This document shows, piece after piece, positions 17,456-33,155 of a DNA stretch of 40,679 nt. The notes under the pieces were generated by a model, which saw only the letters and a program-made list of their open reading frames with translations, had not been told where the DNA came from and did no database searches. Both the position numbers and the translations under genes were made by a program. Every line of letters starts with the position of its first letter. Positions within the stretch are counted from its first letter, which is position 1. The DNA is from Pseudonocardia sp. (GTDB lineage: Bacteria; Actinomycetota; Actinomycetes; Mycobacteriales; Pseudonocardiaceae): NCBI GenBank assembly GCA_029266775.1, contig JAQSWF010000001.1:1-40679 (forward strand), read 5' to 3'.

Positions 17456-17466
17456 TCCCGACCCCG

Positions 17467-17554
17467 CGCGAGTCGCTACAAATTGGCACGCGAGTCGCTA
17501 CGAACTGGCGCGCGAGTCGCTACGAACTGGCGCGCGAGTCGAGCGATCGGCGCA
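17467..17554. repeat. 22-bp tandem repeat array, left arm (3 good units plus 1 degenerate)
   Basis: cgcgagtcgctacaaattggca / cgcgagtcgctacgaactggcg x2 / cgcgagtcgagcgatcggcgca. Confidence 0.9.
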
Positions 17555-17578: not shown

Positions 17579-18448
17579 TCAGCGCGGGGTGGCGCGAAAG
17601 GTGTGTACGACGGCGGCCATGTCGGCGGCACCGTGCCCCGCGGCCTCCGTCGCGCGGAAGACCTCGGACACCGCCTCGAGGACCCGCGCGTCGACCCCGG
17701 CGGCGCGCATCGTGGTGGAGATCAGCCCCACGTCCTTCACGACGCCCTTGACCGCGAACGCGGTCGGGAACTCGTCGGCGATCATGGCGCGGCCCTTCGC
17801 CTGGGCGTAAGCGGTGTCGAGCGGGCCCCCCGCGATCGTGTCGAGGAACAGCTGCGGGTCCAGCCCGAGCGCCTCGGCCATCGCGATCGCCTGCCCCGTG
17901 CCTGTGATCAGCATGCCCACCCAGGAGTTCGCGACCAGCTTGAGCTTCTGCCCGTCGCCAGGCCGCTCCCCGACCCAGATGGTCCGCGAGCCGACCGCAT
18001 CGAACACCGGGGCGACGGACTCGCGGAGCGCGTCGGGACCGCTCGCCAGCACGGTCAGGGTCCCGGCCTCGGCGGGTTGGCGGGTGCCGAGGACGGGCGC
18101 GTCGACGAACGCGACGCCGTGCCGCTCAGCCAGCGCCGCCAGGCGAGCCGTCTCATCGAGGCCGACGGTCGCCATCTGCGCCCACACCGCCCCCGCCGGG
18201 GCGCGCGCCAGCGCAGGCTTCATGACCTGCGCGGTCGCGTCGGCGTCGAAGAGCATCGTCACGACGACGTCCGCTCCCTCGACCGCATCGACGGCGTCTG
18301 CCGCCACGGTCACCCGGTCGTCGGCGAGCGCCCGGGCCGGCTCCGGGCTGCGGTTCCACACCGTCGCGTCCAGTCCCGCACGAGCCAGGTTGCGGGCCAT
18401 GCCCGCGCCCATGATCCCGATGCCGAGCACGGCCACTCTCACCGTCAC
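17579..18448 (-). CDS. NAD(P)-dependent 3-hydroxyisobutyrate / 6-phosphogluconate dehydrogenase-like enzyme
   Basis: VRVAVLGIGIMGAGMARNLARAGLDATVWNRSPE Rossmann motif; FVDAPVLGTRQPAEAGTLTVLASG; KLVANSW. Confidence 0.88.
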   Translation of the reverse strand: MTVRVAVLGIGIMGAGMARNLARAGLDATVWNRSPEPARALADDRVTVAADAVDAVEGADVVVTMLFDADATAQVMKPALARAPAGAVWAQMATVGLDETARLAALAERHGVAFVDAPVLGTRQPAEAGTLTVLASGPDALRESVAPVFDAVGSRTIWVGERPGDGQKLKLVANSWVGMLITGTGQAIAMAEALGLDPQLFLDTIAGGPLDTAYAQAKGRAMIADEFPTAFAVKGVVKDVGLISTTMRAAGVDARVLEAVSEVFRATEAAGHGAADMAAVVHTFRATPR

Positions 18449-18477
18449 GAGATCCTCCCGTCCCGCGGCGGGTCGGC

Positions 18478-18543
18478 CGCCCGATGGCGCGCATTCGCGC
18501 GCCAGTTTGTACCGACTCGCGCGCCAATTTGTAGCGACTCGCG
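18478..18543. repeat. 22-bp tandem repeat array, right arm, inverted relative to 17467-17554 (2 good units plus 1 degenerate)
   Basis: cgccagtttgtaccgactcgcg (18500-18521) and cgccaatttgtagcgactcgcg (18522-18543) are reverse complements of the left-array unit. Confidence 0.9.
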
Positions 18544-18557
18544 CGGGGGCGGCGGGA

Positions 18558-27752: not shown

Positions 27753-27840
27753 GCGAGTTGTCCATCTCGGCACGGCGAGTTGTCCGTCTCGGCACGGCGA
27801 GTTGTGCGTTCGTGCGCGGCGAGTTGCGCAATCGAGTACC
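27753..27840. repeat. 22-bp-period tandem repeat array (4 units, last two diverged)
   Basis: gcgagttgtccatctcggcacg / gcgagttgtccgtctcggcacg / gcgagttgtgcgttcgtgcgcg / gcgagttgcgcaatcgagtacc. Confidence 0.88.
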
Positions 27841-29133: not shown

Positions 29134-29712
29134 TCAGACGGTGCGGAGGCGAGGGAGGCCGGGCAGGGCGTCGTCCAGCAGCGGGTCGAGGAGCGGGGCC
29201 TGCAGCCGGGCCCAGGGCGAGAGGATGCTGTCCGGGGCTGTCGCGGCCGCGAGGAACGCGTCCCAGTCCCACCACAGCCATTCCGCCACCTCGGCCGGCA
29301 CCGGGGTCGGGTCGCCGTCGATGCGGCAGACGTAGACCGGGCACAGCTCGTTCTCCTCGACCGTGCCGTCCGAGGCGCGGTAGGAGAAGTCGGGCAGGAC
29401 GAGCGTGAGGCCGCGGGCGGAGACGCCGAGCTCGTCGCACAGCCGGCGGTGCACAGCGTCGTCGATCGCCTCGTCCGGGCCGGGGTGTCCGCAGCACGTA
29501 CCCGTCCACACCAGCGGGAACGCCCGCTTCTCCGCGGCGCGCCGCGTGACGAGGACGCGGCCGGCGGAGTCGAACCCGTAGCAGGAAAAGGCGAGGTGAC
29601 GCGGCGTGGTGGCGCCGTGCACGGTCGCCTTGTCGGCGACGCCCACAGGCCGCCCCGCGTCGTCGAGGAGCACCACCTCTTCGCGCTCGGTGACGAGGCT
29701 GTCGCTACTCAC
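29134..29712 (-). CDS. idi: Isopentenyl-diphosphate delta-isomerase, type I (NUDIX)
   Basis: EVVLLDDAGRPVGVADKATVHGATTPRHLAFSCYGFDSAGRVLVTRRAAEKRAFPLVWTGTCCGHPGPDE...LPDFSYRASDGTVEENELCPVY; start overlaps the PKS stop (GTGA). Confidence 0.93.
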   Translation of the reverse strand: MSSDSLVTEREEVVLLDDAGRPVGVADKATVHGATTPRHLAFSCYGFDSAGRVLVTRRAAEKRAFPLVWTGTCCGHPGPDEAIDDAVHRRLCDELGVSARGLTLVLPDFSYRASDGTVEENELCPVYVCRIDGDPTPVPAEVAEWLWWDWDAFLAAATAPDSILSPWARLQAPLLDPLLDDALPGLPRLRTV

Positions 29713-30785
29713 CGGGGGTCGTCCTCCTGATGTCGGTCGGGTGCCCGCAGCAGGGCGGCGTACAGGGTCAGGCCAGGCCCGAAGGCCAGCGCGACGGCAT
29801 GACCACCGGGTCGGGGGCGGCCCGCGGTGCGCAGCGCATCGATCACCAGGGGCACGGTGGCCGACGAGCAGTTCCCGTGCGCGGCCAAGATGGCGCGCGA
29901 CGCCGCCAGTGCATCCGCGGGCAGCCCGAGATGATCCTGGACCGTGTCCAGAATGCGCGGACCACCGGGGTGCACGGCCCACGCGTCGACGTCGCCGACA
30001 TCGAGCCCGTGGGCCTCGAGCAGGCGTTCGACCATGGGGCGCACGTGCCGTCCGAGGACCTCCGGGACCCGCGGCGAAAGCCCCATCCGGAAGCCCTGGT
30101 CCGTGACGTCCCAGCTCATGTGGTCCGCCGTCGCCGGGTCGGTGACCGCCGCGACCTCGACGACCTCGAGCCCCGGCCCCACACCCGGGGCGACGACGAT
30201 CGCCACCGCCGCGTCGCCGAACAGCGCGTGCGACACCACCTGGCCGACGTCGTCGGTCGGCGGCTGGACGTGCAGCGACGGCAGCTCGAGGGTCAACAGC
30301 ACCGCGGGGCGGTCGCGGGCGGCGGCGAAGTCGGCGACGGCGCCGAGCCCGGGTACCGCGGCGTAGCAGCCCATGTGCCCGATCACCAGCCGCTGCACGC
30401 CAGGGGCCATGCCGAGGTCGGCCGCCACCCGGATGTCGAGGCCCGGAGTCGCGTACCCGGTGCACGACGCGACGGCGAACAGGCCGACGTCCTCCGCGGC
30501 CAGCTCGGCGTCCGCCAGCGCGGCGGCGACCGCGCCCTTGCCGAGGGGCACCGACTCGGTGGCGTAGCGACGCATCCGGTCTCCTGTGGACCAGCGCGTG
30601 ACGTCGTCGTCGGCGAGCGGGTTCGCCACCGCCTGCCGGTGGGTCACCCCGGCGTCGCGGAAGATCCGTGCAGCCAGTCGCCCGCCACCGTGGTGACGCG
30701 CGAAGAACCCGTCCCACAGCGCGTCCTGCGCGATGGGTCCGCCGGGCAGCGCAGCACCCAGCCCGATGATCCGTGCTGTCACCAT
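29709..30785 (-). CDS. Type III polyketide synthase (chalcone/alkylresorcinol synthase-like)
   Basis: Candidate catalytic triad: Cys in IGHMGCYAAVPGL, His in WAVHPGGPRIL, Asn in AAHGNCSSATVPLV; 358 aa thiolase-fold protein. Confidence 0.92.
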   Translation of the reverse strand: MVTARIIGLGAALPGGPIAQDALWDGFFARHHGGGRLAARIFRDAGVTHRQAVANPLADDDVTRWSTGDRMRRYATESVPLGKGAVAAALADAELAAEDVGLFAVASCTGYATPGLDIRVAADLGMAPGVQRLVIGHMGCYAAVPGLGAVADFAAARDRPAVLLTLELPSLHVQPPTDDVGQVVSHALFGDAAVAIVVAPGVGPGLEVVEVAAVTDPATADHMSWDVTDQGFRMGLSPRVPEVLGRHVRPMVERLLEAHGLDVGDVDAWAVHPGGPRILDTVQDHLGLPADALAASRAILAAHGNCSSATVPLVIDALRTAGRPRPGGHAVALAFGPGLTLYAALLRAPDRHQEDDPR

Positions 30786-30837
30786 CGCGGCCCCGCCGCA
30801 GTGCTCACCATCGCGGCACCGCCGCAGTGCTCACCAT
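30779..30837 (-). repeat. Three copies of a 26-bp start/stop junction unit creating two tandem 10-codon mini-ORFs (MVSTAAVPRW and MVSTAAGPRW)
   Basis: cat triplets at 30783, 30809 and 30835 exactly 26 bp apart; each ATGGTGA overlaps the preceding TGA. Confidence 0.9.
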
Positions 30838-32045
30838 CGCGGCACCGCCGCGGCGTGCGGGTCACCACCCAGCGCAGCGACGCCCAGCCAGTCCGCGCAC
30901 ACGTCCGACGTCGCCGGCTGCAGCGCCCCGCACCGCGCGTCCCGGAAGATCCGCTCGAGCGGGTGGCCGCGACGGGTGACCGACGTGCCGGCGGCCTCGA
31001 GCATGCTGGCCGCCACGTCCGCCGCCGTGTCTCCGGCCAGCAGCTTCGCTCGCCACACCCAGCGGTTGGTCTCCGCGCTGCCGGGGTCGGCGTCGACCCG
31101 CACGGCGGCCTCGTGCACGGCCAGTTCGGCCGCGGCGACGGCGGCGTCGGCGCGCCCGATGCGCGCGCGGGCGGCCGGGAGCCCGACGAGGTCACGCTGC
31201 TGCAGGTGGGCGACGGCGGCATCGACGGCCGAGCGGGCCACCCCCACGTACACCGCGGCGTAGGAGGCCACCAACCACTGCGGCATCACCTGCGCCAGCA
31301 GCAGTGCCAACCCCTCCAAGCCGCCCAGCAGCGCGTCGGCCGGAACCTCGACGTCGAGGTGCAGATCGTGGCTGCCTGTGGCGCGCATGCCGAGCGAGTC
31401 CCACGTCTCCTCCACCATGACGCCGGGACCCGCGGGCACGAGGAACTGCGACACCACCGGCGCGCCGTCCGCACCGAGCTCGGGGGCCCGCGCCGCGACG
31501 AGGTAGGCGTCGGCATGCCCGGCACCGGAGACGAACGCCTTGGCGCCGGTGATCCGATACCCGCGCGCGGTGCGCGTGTAGCAGGTTCGCACCTGCGACA
31601 GCCGGGAGCCGGCGCCGCGCTCGCTCGCGGCGACGGCGTAGAACGCTCCGTCGGCGGCGTCGACGAGGATGCGGTCCCGGGCGTCGAACCAGCTCTCCGG
31701 CGCGCCGAGCGCGCGGGCGAGGTCGTCCGGCGTGGCGGCCAAGGCGCCGGTGACGGAGGCGTGCATGTTGAACAGAAGCGCGGTCGCGGCGGCGCCGGTG
31801 GCGAGCTCCGTCGCCACCGCCGTGTAGCCGGCGAACCCGGCCTCGGCGCCGCCCAGCCGCGCGGGCACCATCAGCCCCAGCATCCGCGCTGCCCGCAGGT
31901 CCTCGACGTCCGCGGTCGGGAAGCGACCGGCGGCGTCGTGCTCCGCGGCGCGGTCAGCGAAGGCGGCCGCCAGCCCGCGTGCGGTCGCGAGGAGGGAGGT
32001 GGAGTCGGTCGGGCGGGTGGCCGTTGCGGGTGTCGGTGCCGTCAC
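30831..32045 (-). CDS. Acyl-CoA dehydrogenase-fold flavoprotein
   Basis: LGLMVPARLGGAEAGFAGYTAVATELATG, AASERGAGSRLSQVR, WDSLGMRATGSHDLHLD, HPLERIFRDARCGALQPATSDVCADWLG; GTG start at 32045 overlaps the methyltransferase stop. Confidence 0.87.
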   Translation of the reverse strand: MTAPTPATATRPTDSTSLLATARGLAAAFADRAAEHDAAGRFPTADVEDLRAARMLGLMVPARLGGAEAGFAGYTAVATELATGAAATALLFNMHASVTGALAATPDDLARALGAPESWFDARDRILVDAADGAFYAVAASERGAGSRLSQVRTCYTRTARGYRITGAKAFVSGAGHADAYLVAARAPELGADGAPVVSQFLVPAGPGVMVEETWDSLGMRATGSHDLHLDVEVPADALLGGLEGLALLLAQVMPQWLVASYAAVYVGVARSAVDAAVAHLQQRDLVGLPAARARIGRADAAVAAAELAVHEAAVRVDADPGSAETNRWVWRAKLLAGDTAADVAASMLEAAGTSVTRRGHPLERIFRDARCGALQPATSDVCADWLGVAALGGDPHAAAVPRW

Positions 32046-32824
32046 CGTCGGCGCCCCGCGCCCTGGAAGAGCACGGCAGTGGTCGGCACCGCCACCATCC
32101 GCACGGCGGACCGACGCCCGGCGCGCCACAGCAGCATGTCCAGCACGGACGGGCGGATACCCCACAGGCGCAGGTCCACGCCGTACCGGGCGCACTCGCG
32201 CACCAGCTCGGCGCGATTCACGAAGAGTGCCGGGTCGTGGATGCCGGGTGGCGGGCCGCCGGGGAGGCGCTCGGCCAGCGTCACCCCGAGGAGACGACCC
32301 AGCCGGGTCGCCGCGAGGGTGTCGAGCACCAGCAAGCCACCGGGACGCAGCAACCGGCAGGCCTCCCGGACGGCCCGGGGCAGGTCCGGCACGTGCTCGA
32401 GGATCTCCCCCGCGACGACGACATCCGCGCAGGCGTCACGCAGCGGAACGGCCAGGACGTCGCCGCGCACCGGCGCGACGCCGTGCGCCGCGGCCTGGGC
32501 CAGCGCCGACACCGTGAGGTCGACGCCGACGTGCCGGTAACCCTTGCCGGCGACGTGCGGAGCGAGCAGGCCCGCACCGCAGCCCAGGTCGACGAGGACA
32601 GCGCCCGGGCGAGTGGCGGAGGGGATCAGGGCGCCCCGAGCGGCGGCAACCCACTGCAGCATCGCGAAGGCCCCGCGTGGCGCCCACCAGTGCGCGGCCA
32701 GGTCGTCGTACTGAGCAAGATCGTTCGGCTGCCGTGCTCGACCGCGTGATGCGGGGGCGTCCGGGGGTCGCCGGACCGCGGACGGCCGGGCGCGTCGACC
32801 GTCAGGCAGCGAGGTGGTCTCCAC
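32042..32824 (-). CDS. SAM-dependent methyltransferase (UbiG-like)
   Basis: NDLAQYDDLAAHWWAPRGAFAMLQWVAAARG...AVLVDLGCGAGLLAPHVAGKGYRHVGVDLTVSALAQA; start assignment (GTG 32824) tentative. Confidence 0.85.
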   Translation of the reverse strand: METTSLPDGRRARPSAVRRPPDAPASRGRARQPNDLAQYDDLAAHWWAPRGAFAMLQWVAAARGALIPSATRPGAVLVDLGCGAGLLAPHVAGKGYRHVGVDLTVSALAQAAAHGVAPVRGDVLAVPLRDACADVVVAGEILEHVPDLPRAVREACRLLRPGGLLVLDTLAATRLGRLLGVTLAERLPGGPPPGIHDPALFVNRAELVRECARYGVDLRLWGIRPSVLDMLLWRAGRRSAVRMVAVPTTAVLFQGAGRRR

Positions 32825-33155
32825 ACTCGTCGCCGGCGGCGGACAGCGCCGCAGCCGTGGCGCGGTGGGCCGCAGCGAGGGCATCCGCGGTCGCTCGCAC
32901 ATCCGCCTGCGCGTCGGCCGGTGGCTGGAGGACGACGGGCTGCAGCGGGGAGCTCGCGGGCTGCAGAACGTCGCTGTCCGGCGCATCGTGCGACGGCACC
33001 GCCAGCCCGAGCACCGTGCCGACGGTCGCGACGACGACGCTCGCCGAGCGCGTGACCGTCGCCGGGCGTGCGATCCGTCGGTCCAGGCGGTGGCGTCCTC
33101 GCGGGGTCCCGTAACGACTCACGGCTCGGGCATACCCGGCACTTCGCGTCCTCAT
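32802..33155 (-). CDS. Small hypothetical protein with one hydrophobic segment, possible first gene of the PKS operon
   Basis: 117-aa ORF, hydrophobic stretch SASVVVATVGTVLGLAVP; overlaps the methyltransferase start by about 23 bp. Confidence 0.45.
   Translation of the reverse strand: MRTRSAGYARAVSRYGTPRGRHRLDRRIARPATVTRSASVVVATVGTVLGLAVPSHDAPDSDVLQPASSPLQPVVLQPPADAQADVRATADALAAAHRATAAALSAAGDECGDHLAA

Follow-up and report, generated by a model that had tools for sequence, protein, structure and literature searches.

A tripled 26-bp stop/start junction between an acyl-CoA dehydrogenase gene and a type III polyketide synthase gene in Pseudonocardia sp.

The minus strand of the analysed window, a stretch of 40,679 nucleotides from Pseudonocardia sp., carries three ATGGTGA motifs at a spacing of exactly 26 bp (30779-30837) between the genes for an acyl-CoA dehydrogenase and a type III polyketide synthase (PKS). 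This junction is real, is unique to the source genome and can be accounted for by tandem duplication, at this locus, of a coupled junction; tuning of enzyme dosage by it is speculation. We consider it probable that an ancestral NTGGTGA (GTGA) overlap was tandemly duplicated in place within this lineage, so that there are now three overlaps, with two closed mini-ORFs between them through which coupling would be relayed from one gene to the next. The features concerned are listed in Table 1.

Table 1. Features of the dehydrogenase/synthase junction and the surrounding operon (positions in the window)
Feature	Position	Strand	Basis and remarks
SAM methyltransferase-like ORF, upstream in operon	32042..32986	-	Pfam PF08241; NCBIfam UbiG-like, below cut-off; start position tentative
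Acyl-CoA dehydrogenase-like gene	30831..32045	-	Pfam PF02771/PF02770/PF00441
26-bp tandem array, 2.8 copies	30779..30851	-	Three ATGGTGA at 30831-30837, 30805-30811 and 30779-30785; sequence, Tandem Repeats Finder, pattern search
Mini-ORF 1, MVSTAAVPRW-stop	30805..30837	-	Sequence; alternative of 9 codons from GTG at 30834
Mini-ORF 2, MVSTAAGPRW-stop	30779..30811	-	Sequence; alternative of 9 codons from GTG at 30808
Weak Shine-Dalgarno-like GGCGGGG before PKS start	30791..30797	-	Duplex energy -5.6 kcal/mol
Type III polyketide synthase, MVTARIIGLG... or start at GTG 30782	29709..30785	-	Pfam PF00195/PF02797
Isopentenyl-diphosphate delta-isomerase	29134..29712	-	NCBIfam NF002995, 214 bits vs. 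cut-off 127

Read along the minus strand, the junction runs ...GCGGCGGTGCCGCG ATGGTGAGCACTGCGGCGGTGCCGCG ATGGTGAGCACTGCGGCGGGGCCGCG ATGGTGACAGCACGG..., with the dehydrogenase TGA at 30831-30833, ATGs at 30837, 30811 and 30785, and 45 nt from the dehydrogenase stop to the synthase ATG in the three-unit state. Tandem Repeats Finder delimits the array at 30779-30851 (period 26, 2.8 copies, 97% matches) and gives it the top score in the window, 139. The units differ at a single base (GGTG vs. GGGG, minus-strand position 30792), and both mini-ORFs are open over 10 codons each. On re-reading of the sequence, the coordinates, the 26-bp spacing of the three ATGs and the two mini-ORFs given in a preliminary description of this DNA proved exact to the base. 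What that description overlooked is that every ATGGTGA includes the canonical 4-nt overlap, GTGA; among coupled genes of E. coli and Haloferax this arrangement is the most frequent (PMC10666635). The actual initiation codon may be GTG rather than ATG, in which case the mini-ORFs have nine codons; GTG is the more likely start in relatives that carry CTG or TTG at the ATG position. The spaced RTGGTGA pattern occurs within the window only at the array, the expectation from shuffled sequences being 0.00, and no second copy of the arrangement was found elsewhere in the 3.42-Mb assembly (88.5% complete). A search of the same assembly for the 26-bp unit with up to 3 mismatches returned only two overlapping matches, both at the array locus.

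Each unit also contains a GC-rich inverted repeat, GCGGC-GGT-GCCGC, built of constrained dehydrogenase codons. Across 30785-30833 the dehydrogenase and the synthase share a frame in the three-copy state, with one TGA and 15 sense codons between them; a readthrough fusion of the two is possible only at the present copy number, modulo 3. Stop-codon readthrough into such a fusion was rejected, as nothing speaks in its favour despite the shared frame and the single intervening TGA. Elsewhere in the window, a 22-bp tandem repeat (GCGAGTCGCTACRAAYTGGCGC) is present at 17465-17541 (+) and 18495-18545 (-), in opposite orientations around one gene (about 17579-18450), and belongs to a family with 219 matches in the genome (up to 3 mismatches), often in head-to-tail arrays. 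Another 22-bp tandem repeat family, distinct from the first (GGCGAGTTGTCCGTCTCGGCAC, 18 genome matches), is represented at 27753-27826.

The operon comprises, in order along the minus strand, the methyltransferase-like ORF, the acyl-CoA dehydrogenase, the type III PKS, for which the closest solved structures are Pks18 (PDB best match 1ted) and Pks11, and the isopentenyl-diphosphate isomerase. The likely start of the dehydrogenase is GTG 32045, in a GTGA overlap with the methyltransferase stop (CGGTGACGG), and the PKS stop and the isomerase start likewise share a GTGA (CCGGTGAGT), so that single GTGA overlaps flank the tripled middle junction on both sides. The source genome encodes another such synthase, with 68% identity (L054; G000:C312:3207-4244). 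It is located directly 3' of a likely methyltransferase gene whose product ends in the same C-terminal motif, and no dehydrogenase is present there. This layout, methyltransferase then synthase without dehydrogenase, is the usual one in the genus.

In order to place the junction among its relatives, the dehydrogenase was searched for in 62 genomes of the genus (threshold E 1e-100), 299 of the order and 392 of the family. At this threshold the source genome was the only one of the 62 to contain it, no dehydrogenase being found in the 61 other genus genomes, and no other member of the genus has the gene pair. Pooling with loci from relatives of the synthase gave 95 distinct dehydrogenase ends, i.e. 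the source end and 94 others. All 95 terminate in Arg-Trp-stop (CGN TGG TGA), with TAG instead in four, and because of this ending GTGA is nearly always present. Of the 94 other junctions, 51 have an in-frame candidate synthase start in a single NTGGTGA overlap at the corresponding position; in most of the remainder (family f15, genus g15 and the group of Micromonospora loci L039 and L041) the start of the synthase is at least 37 nt farther downstream. In the comparison of relatives for 26-bp units that the preliminary description proposed, none of the 94 other junctions, including those from the order and the family, contains one. As the single overlap is common in relatives and the unit is absent from the 94 others, the three-unit state is, by sequence comparison, derived and so far confined to one genome.

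The composition of the unit points to its origin. The unit, ATGGTGAGCACTGCG-GCGGTGCCGCG, consists of 15 bp of synthase head encoding MVSTA (ATGGTGAGCACTGCG) followed by 11 bp of dehydrogenase tail (GCGGTGCCGCG). Synthase heads of the MVSTA/MVSTT type are found in relatives (L017, TTGGTGAGCACGGCGCGC; L060, ATGGTGAGCACC; L123, ATGGTGAGCACG), and because these match the unit, the ancestral synthase probably began MVSTAR; the present head, MVTAR, is different in a single codon. A tandem duplication in place, spanning the overlap, would have occurred once and been followed by slippage between the two copies. Duplication and slippage together explain everything, and a mobile element is unnecessary. 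The earlier proposal that a single ancestral dehydrogenase/PKS overlap was tandemly duplicated is accordingly upheld by the 51 of 94 single overlaps, the absence of the unit from the other junctions and its make-up of dehydrogenase tail and synthase head.

The length of the unit is also of consequence. When 696 duplications across the inferred single junction were enumerated, 232 gave a relay, all of them in the length class 2 mod 3: duplications of this class always close in the next overlap, and those of 0 or 1 mod 3 run past it without that stop. The value of 26 bp, which is 2 mod 3 and closes each mini-ORF in the next overlap, is a one-in-three outcome by chance, a point overlooked in the preliminary description. 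Its statement that copy changes shift the frame across the junction put the emphasis wrongly, in that each gene is read in its own frame whatever the number of copies. The stop always comes from the first copy and the start from the last, which leaves both proteins unaltered; the length class decides only the fate of a ribosome restarting at an early copy.

In the proposed relay, a ribosome finishing the dehydrogenase would restart at the overlapping GTG/ATG, read 9-10 codons, terminate in the next overlap and restart again, and after the second mini-ORF would start the synthase, the coupling thereby being preserved. Synthase output would probably lie below that of a single overlap because reinitiation has to succeed three times, and the synthase-to-dehydrogenase ratio would be expected to be reduced relative to one overlap. 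Translation of the mini-ORF relay appears plausible from this analysis. Reinitiation in E. coli and Haloferax falls by 40-80% at about +14 nt and is nearly abolished at +38 nt (PMC10666635), rates that come from E. coli and an archaeon and are applied here to an actinobacterial host. As the gap here is 45 nt, direct coupling should fail without the mini-ORFs, and if the synthase is still dependent on coupling, the mini-ORFs must carry it.

Alternatively, the synthase may start independently at its own weak ribosome-binding site, with the copies serving as an inert spacer and the mini-ORFs without effect. This is possible, although we regard it as unlikely. The GGCGGGG, which precedes the ATG by about 5 nt and the GTG by 8 nt and has a predicted duplex of -5.6 kcal/mol, is consistent with such a start, as is the Micromonospora junction, where the overlap has been lost and the synthase, at least 37 nt downstream, apparently has a purine-rich site of its own. 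However, the Pseudonocardia site is weaker than the GGCGGTG at the equivalent place in the two earlier copies (30817-30823 and 30843-30849, -8.6 kcal/mol each) and far under the perfect Shine-Dalgarno reference duplex (-19.9 kcal/mol), and the predicted fold of the junction RNA (-82 kcal/mol) would hinder free initiation. Together, the weak Shine-Dalgarno-like site and the strong predicted fold favour coupling over free initiation. The fold is only mildly stronger than those of shuffled sequences (z -1.87), for which reason junction RNA structure was rejected as a regulatory element.

A more elaborate proposal is that the junction is a naturally evolved, locus-specific mini-ORF relay, born without a mobile element by 2 mod 3 duplication, whose copy number sets the ratio of the synthase to the upstream enzyme; we think this doubtful. 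Similarly improbable is that the repeat is a selected, copy-variable translational attenuator in which each added 26-bp unit is one more reinitiation step and means less synthase relative to dehydrogenase. The geometry would do so automatically if reinitiation is below 100%, and in M. tuberculosis the length of the repeat upstream of fpg1 correlates with its mRNA level (PMC2734929). Against this, 26-bp copies occur at none of the 94 other junctions, so no variation to select on was seen, and there is no sign of selection. The earlier suggestion that copy number tunes PKS dosage is likewise unsupported, because the copies are found in no second genome and copy variation is not visible. We think that the array persists mainly through harming neither protein and not through selection as a dial.

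The source assembly is fragmented (318 contigs, 88.5% complete), which might suggest an assembly artefact, yet this is very improbable given units that differ at one base, unique flanks on both sides and two intact mini-ORFs, and misassembly of the array is unlikely because at 73 bp it is shorter than an ordinary short read. Mycobacterial interspersed repetitive units (MIRUs), the closest known match to the array, are, as characterized by Supply (1997) and summarized in PMC12548453 and PMC2734929, dispersed repeats of 40-100 bp that appear mobile; they insert at start codons, with an internal ORF that couples to the gene at -4 spacing (PMC12548453). In M. tuberculosis H37Rv they occupy 41 sites and are polymorphic in copy number (PMC2734929). 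Insertion of a mobile MIRU-type element at the GTGA site would account for the shared architecture, but is extremely unlikely, since a search of the genome that allowed 3 mismatches finds the unit at this locus only and the unit is composed of the ends of both flanking genes.

A different repeat of about 60 bp, in one to three tandem copies, directly follows the dehydrogenase stop in several Micromonospora-type genomes (L063, L067, L070, L071 and L075 at the dehydrogenase/PKS junction). It is not homologous to the 26-bp unit and has no match in the source genome, and no description of it was found in our literature search. This 56-62-bp element (GTGAGCGCGAGGAGTGAGCC...CGCAGTCGCGAACG...) sits exactly between the GTGA stop of one gene and the DTGA start of the next; it is scattered through each genome in more than 30 matches, some of them in tandem. 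We examined 60 copies (L155-L214) from three genomes (G152, G347 and G145); the 5' TGA could be placed in 54, of which 42 have an upstream coding frame ending at the element TGA and a downstream frame starting at the DTGA. Among single copies with both ends, 32 of 36 have a stop-to-stop length of 2 mod 3 (56, 59 or 62 bp), for which the probability under a one-third expectation is 7e-12, only indicative as the copies are related. Copies of this class contain an open frame of 18-20 codons, e.g. VSARSEPVLRAPQSRTGTAL followed by a stop codon. The element looks like an actinobacterial analogue of MIRUs. It supports the idea that a coupled junction tolerates an insertion whose length belongs to the class that preserves coupling.

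The array also shows how coupled junctions can grow without breaking either gene, by duplications or insertions of length 2 mod 3 with a stop/start overlap at each end. The length rule shared with the Micromonospora element suggests that tolerance of this kind, or selection for coupling, is general in actinobacteria, which can be tested by counting. If the Pseudonocardia relay is translated, it provides a natural system in which the cumulative effect of reinitiation at consecutive overlaps could be measured.

The literature search, which found papers on MIRUs and on coupling, gave no description of a tandemly duplicated stop/start overlap and no match on type III PKS clusters. The array works like a MIRU array, yet is not a MIRU. 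Like MIRUs, which are often tandem too, it is a short repeat lying between genes of the same direction. Either end carries a stop/start (DTGA) overlap, here the ATGGTGA at each boundary, and successive overlaps are joined by a small in-frame ORF (MVSTAAVPRW-stop and MVSTAAGPRW-stop) whose ends overlap the stop and start codons of its neighbours, so that coupling can pass. In contrast to the foreign, apparently mobile units of 40-100 bp at 41 H37Rv loci, the unit is 26 bp long, joins 15 bp of PKS head to 11 bp of dehydrogenase tail, and occupies one locus in 3.42 Mb (assembly 88.5% complete); being undispersed and derived from its own locus, it is rejected as a MIRU. With termination-reinitiation overlaps (ATGA/GTGA; PMC6728339, PMC10666635) it shares the overlapping stop and start codons, as the canonical 4-nt GTGA within all three ATGGTGA motifs, and relatives carry the single overlap; unlike such pairs, which normally have one overlap, it has three in succession with two mini-ORFs. 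It also resembles bicistronic leaders and short upstream ORFs (PMC13255528, PMC12548453), in which a short non-functional ORF ends at the start of the real gene, but whereas those leaders are engineered, or single and at the front of a gene, the mini-ORFs described here are internal to an operon and doubled.
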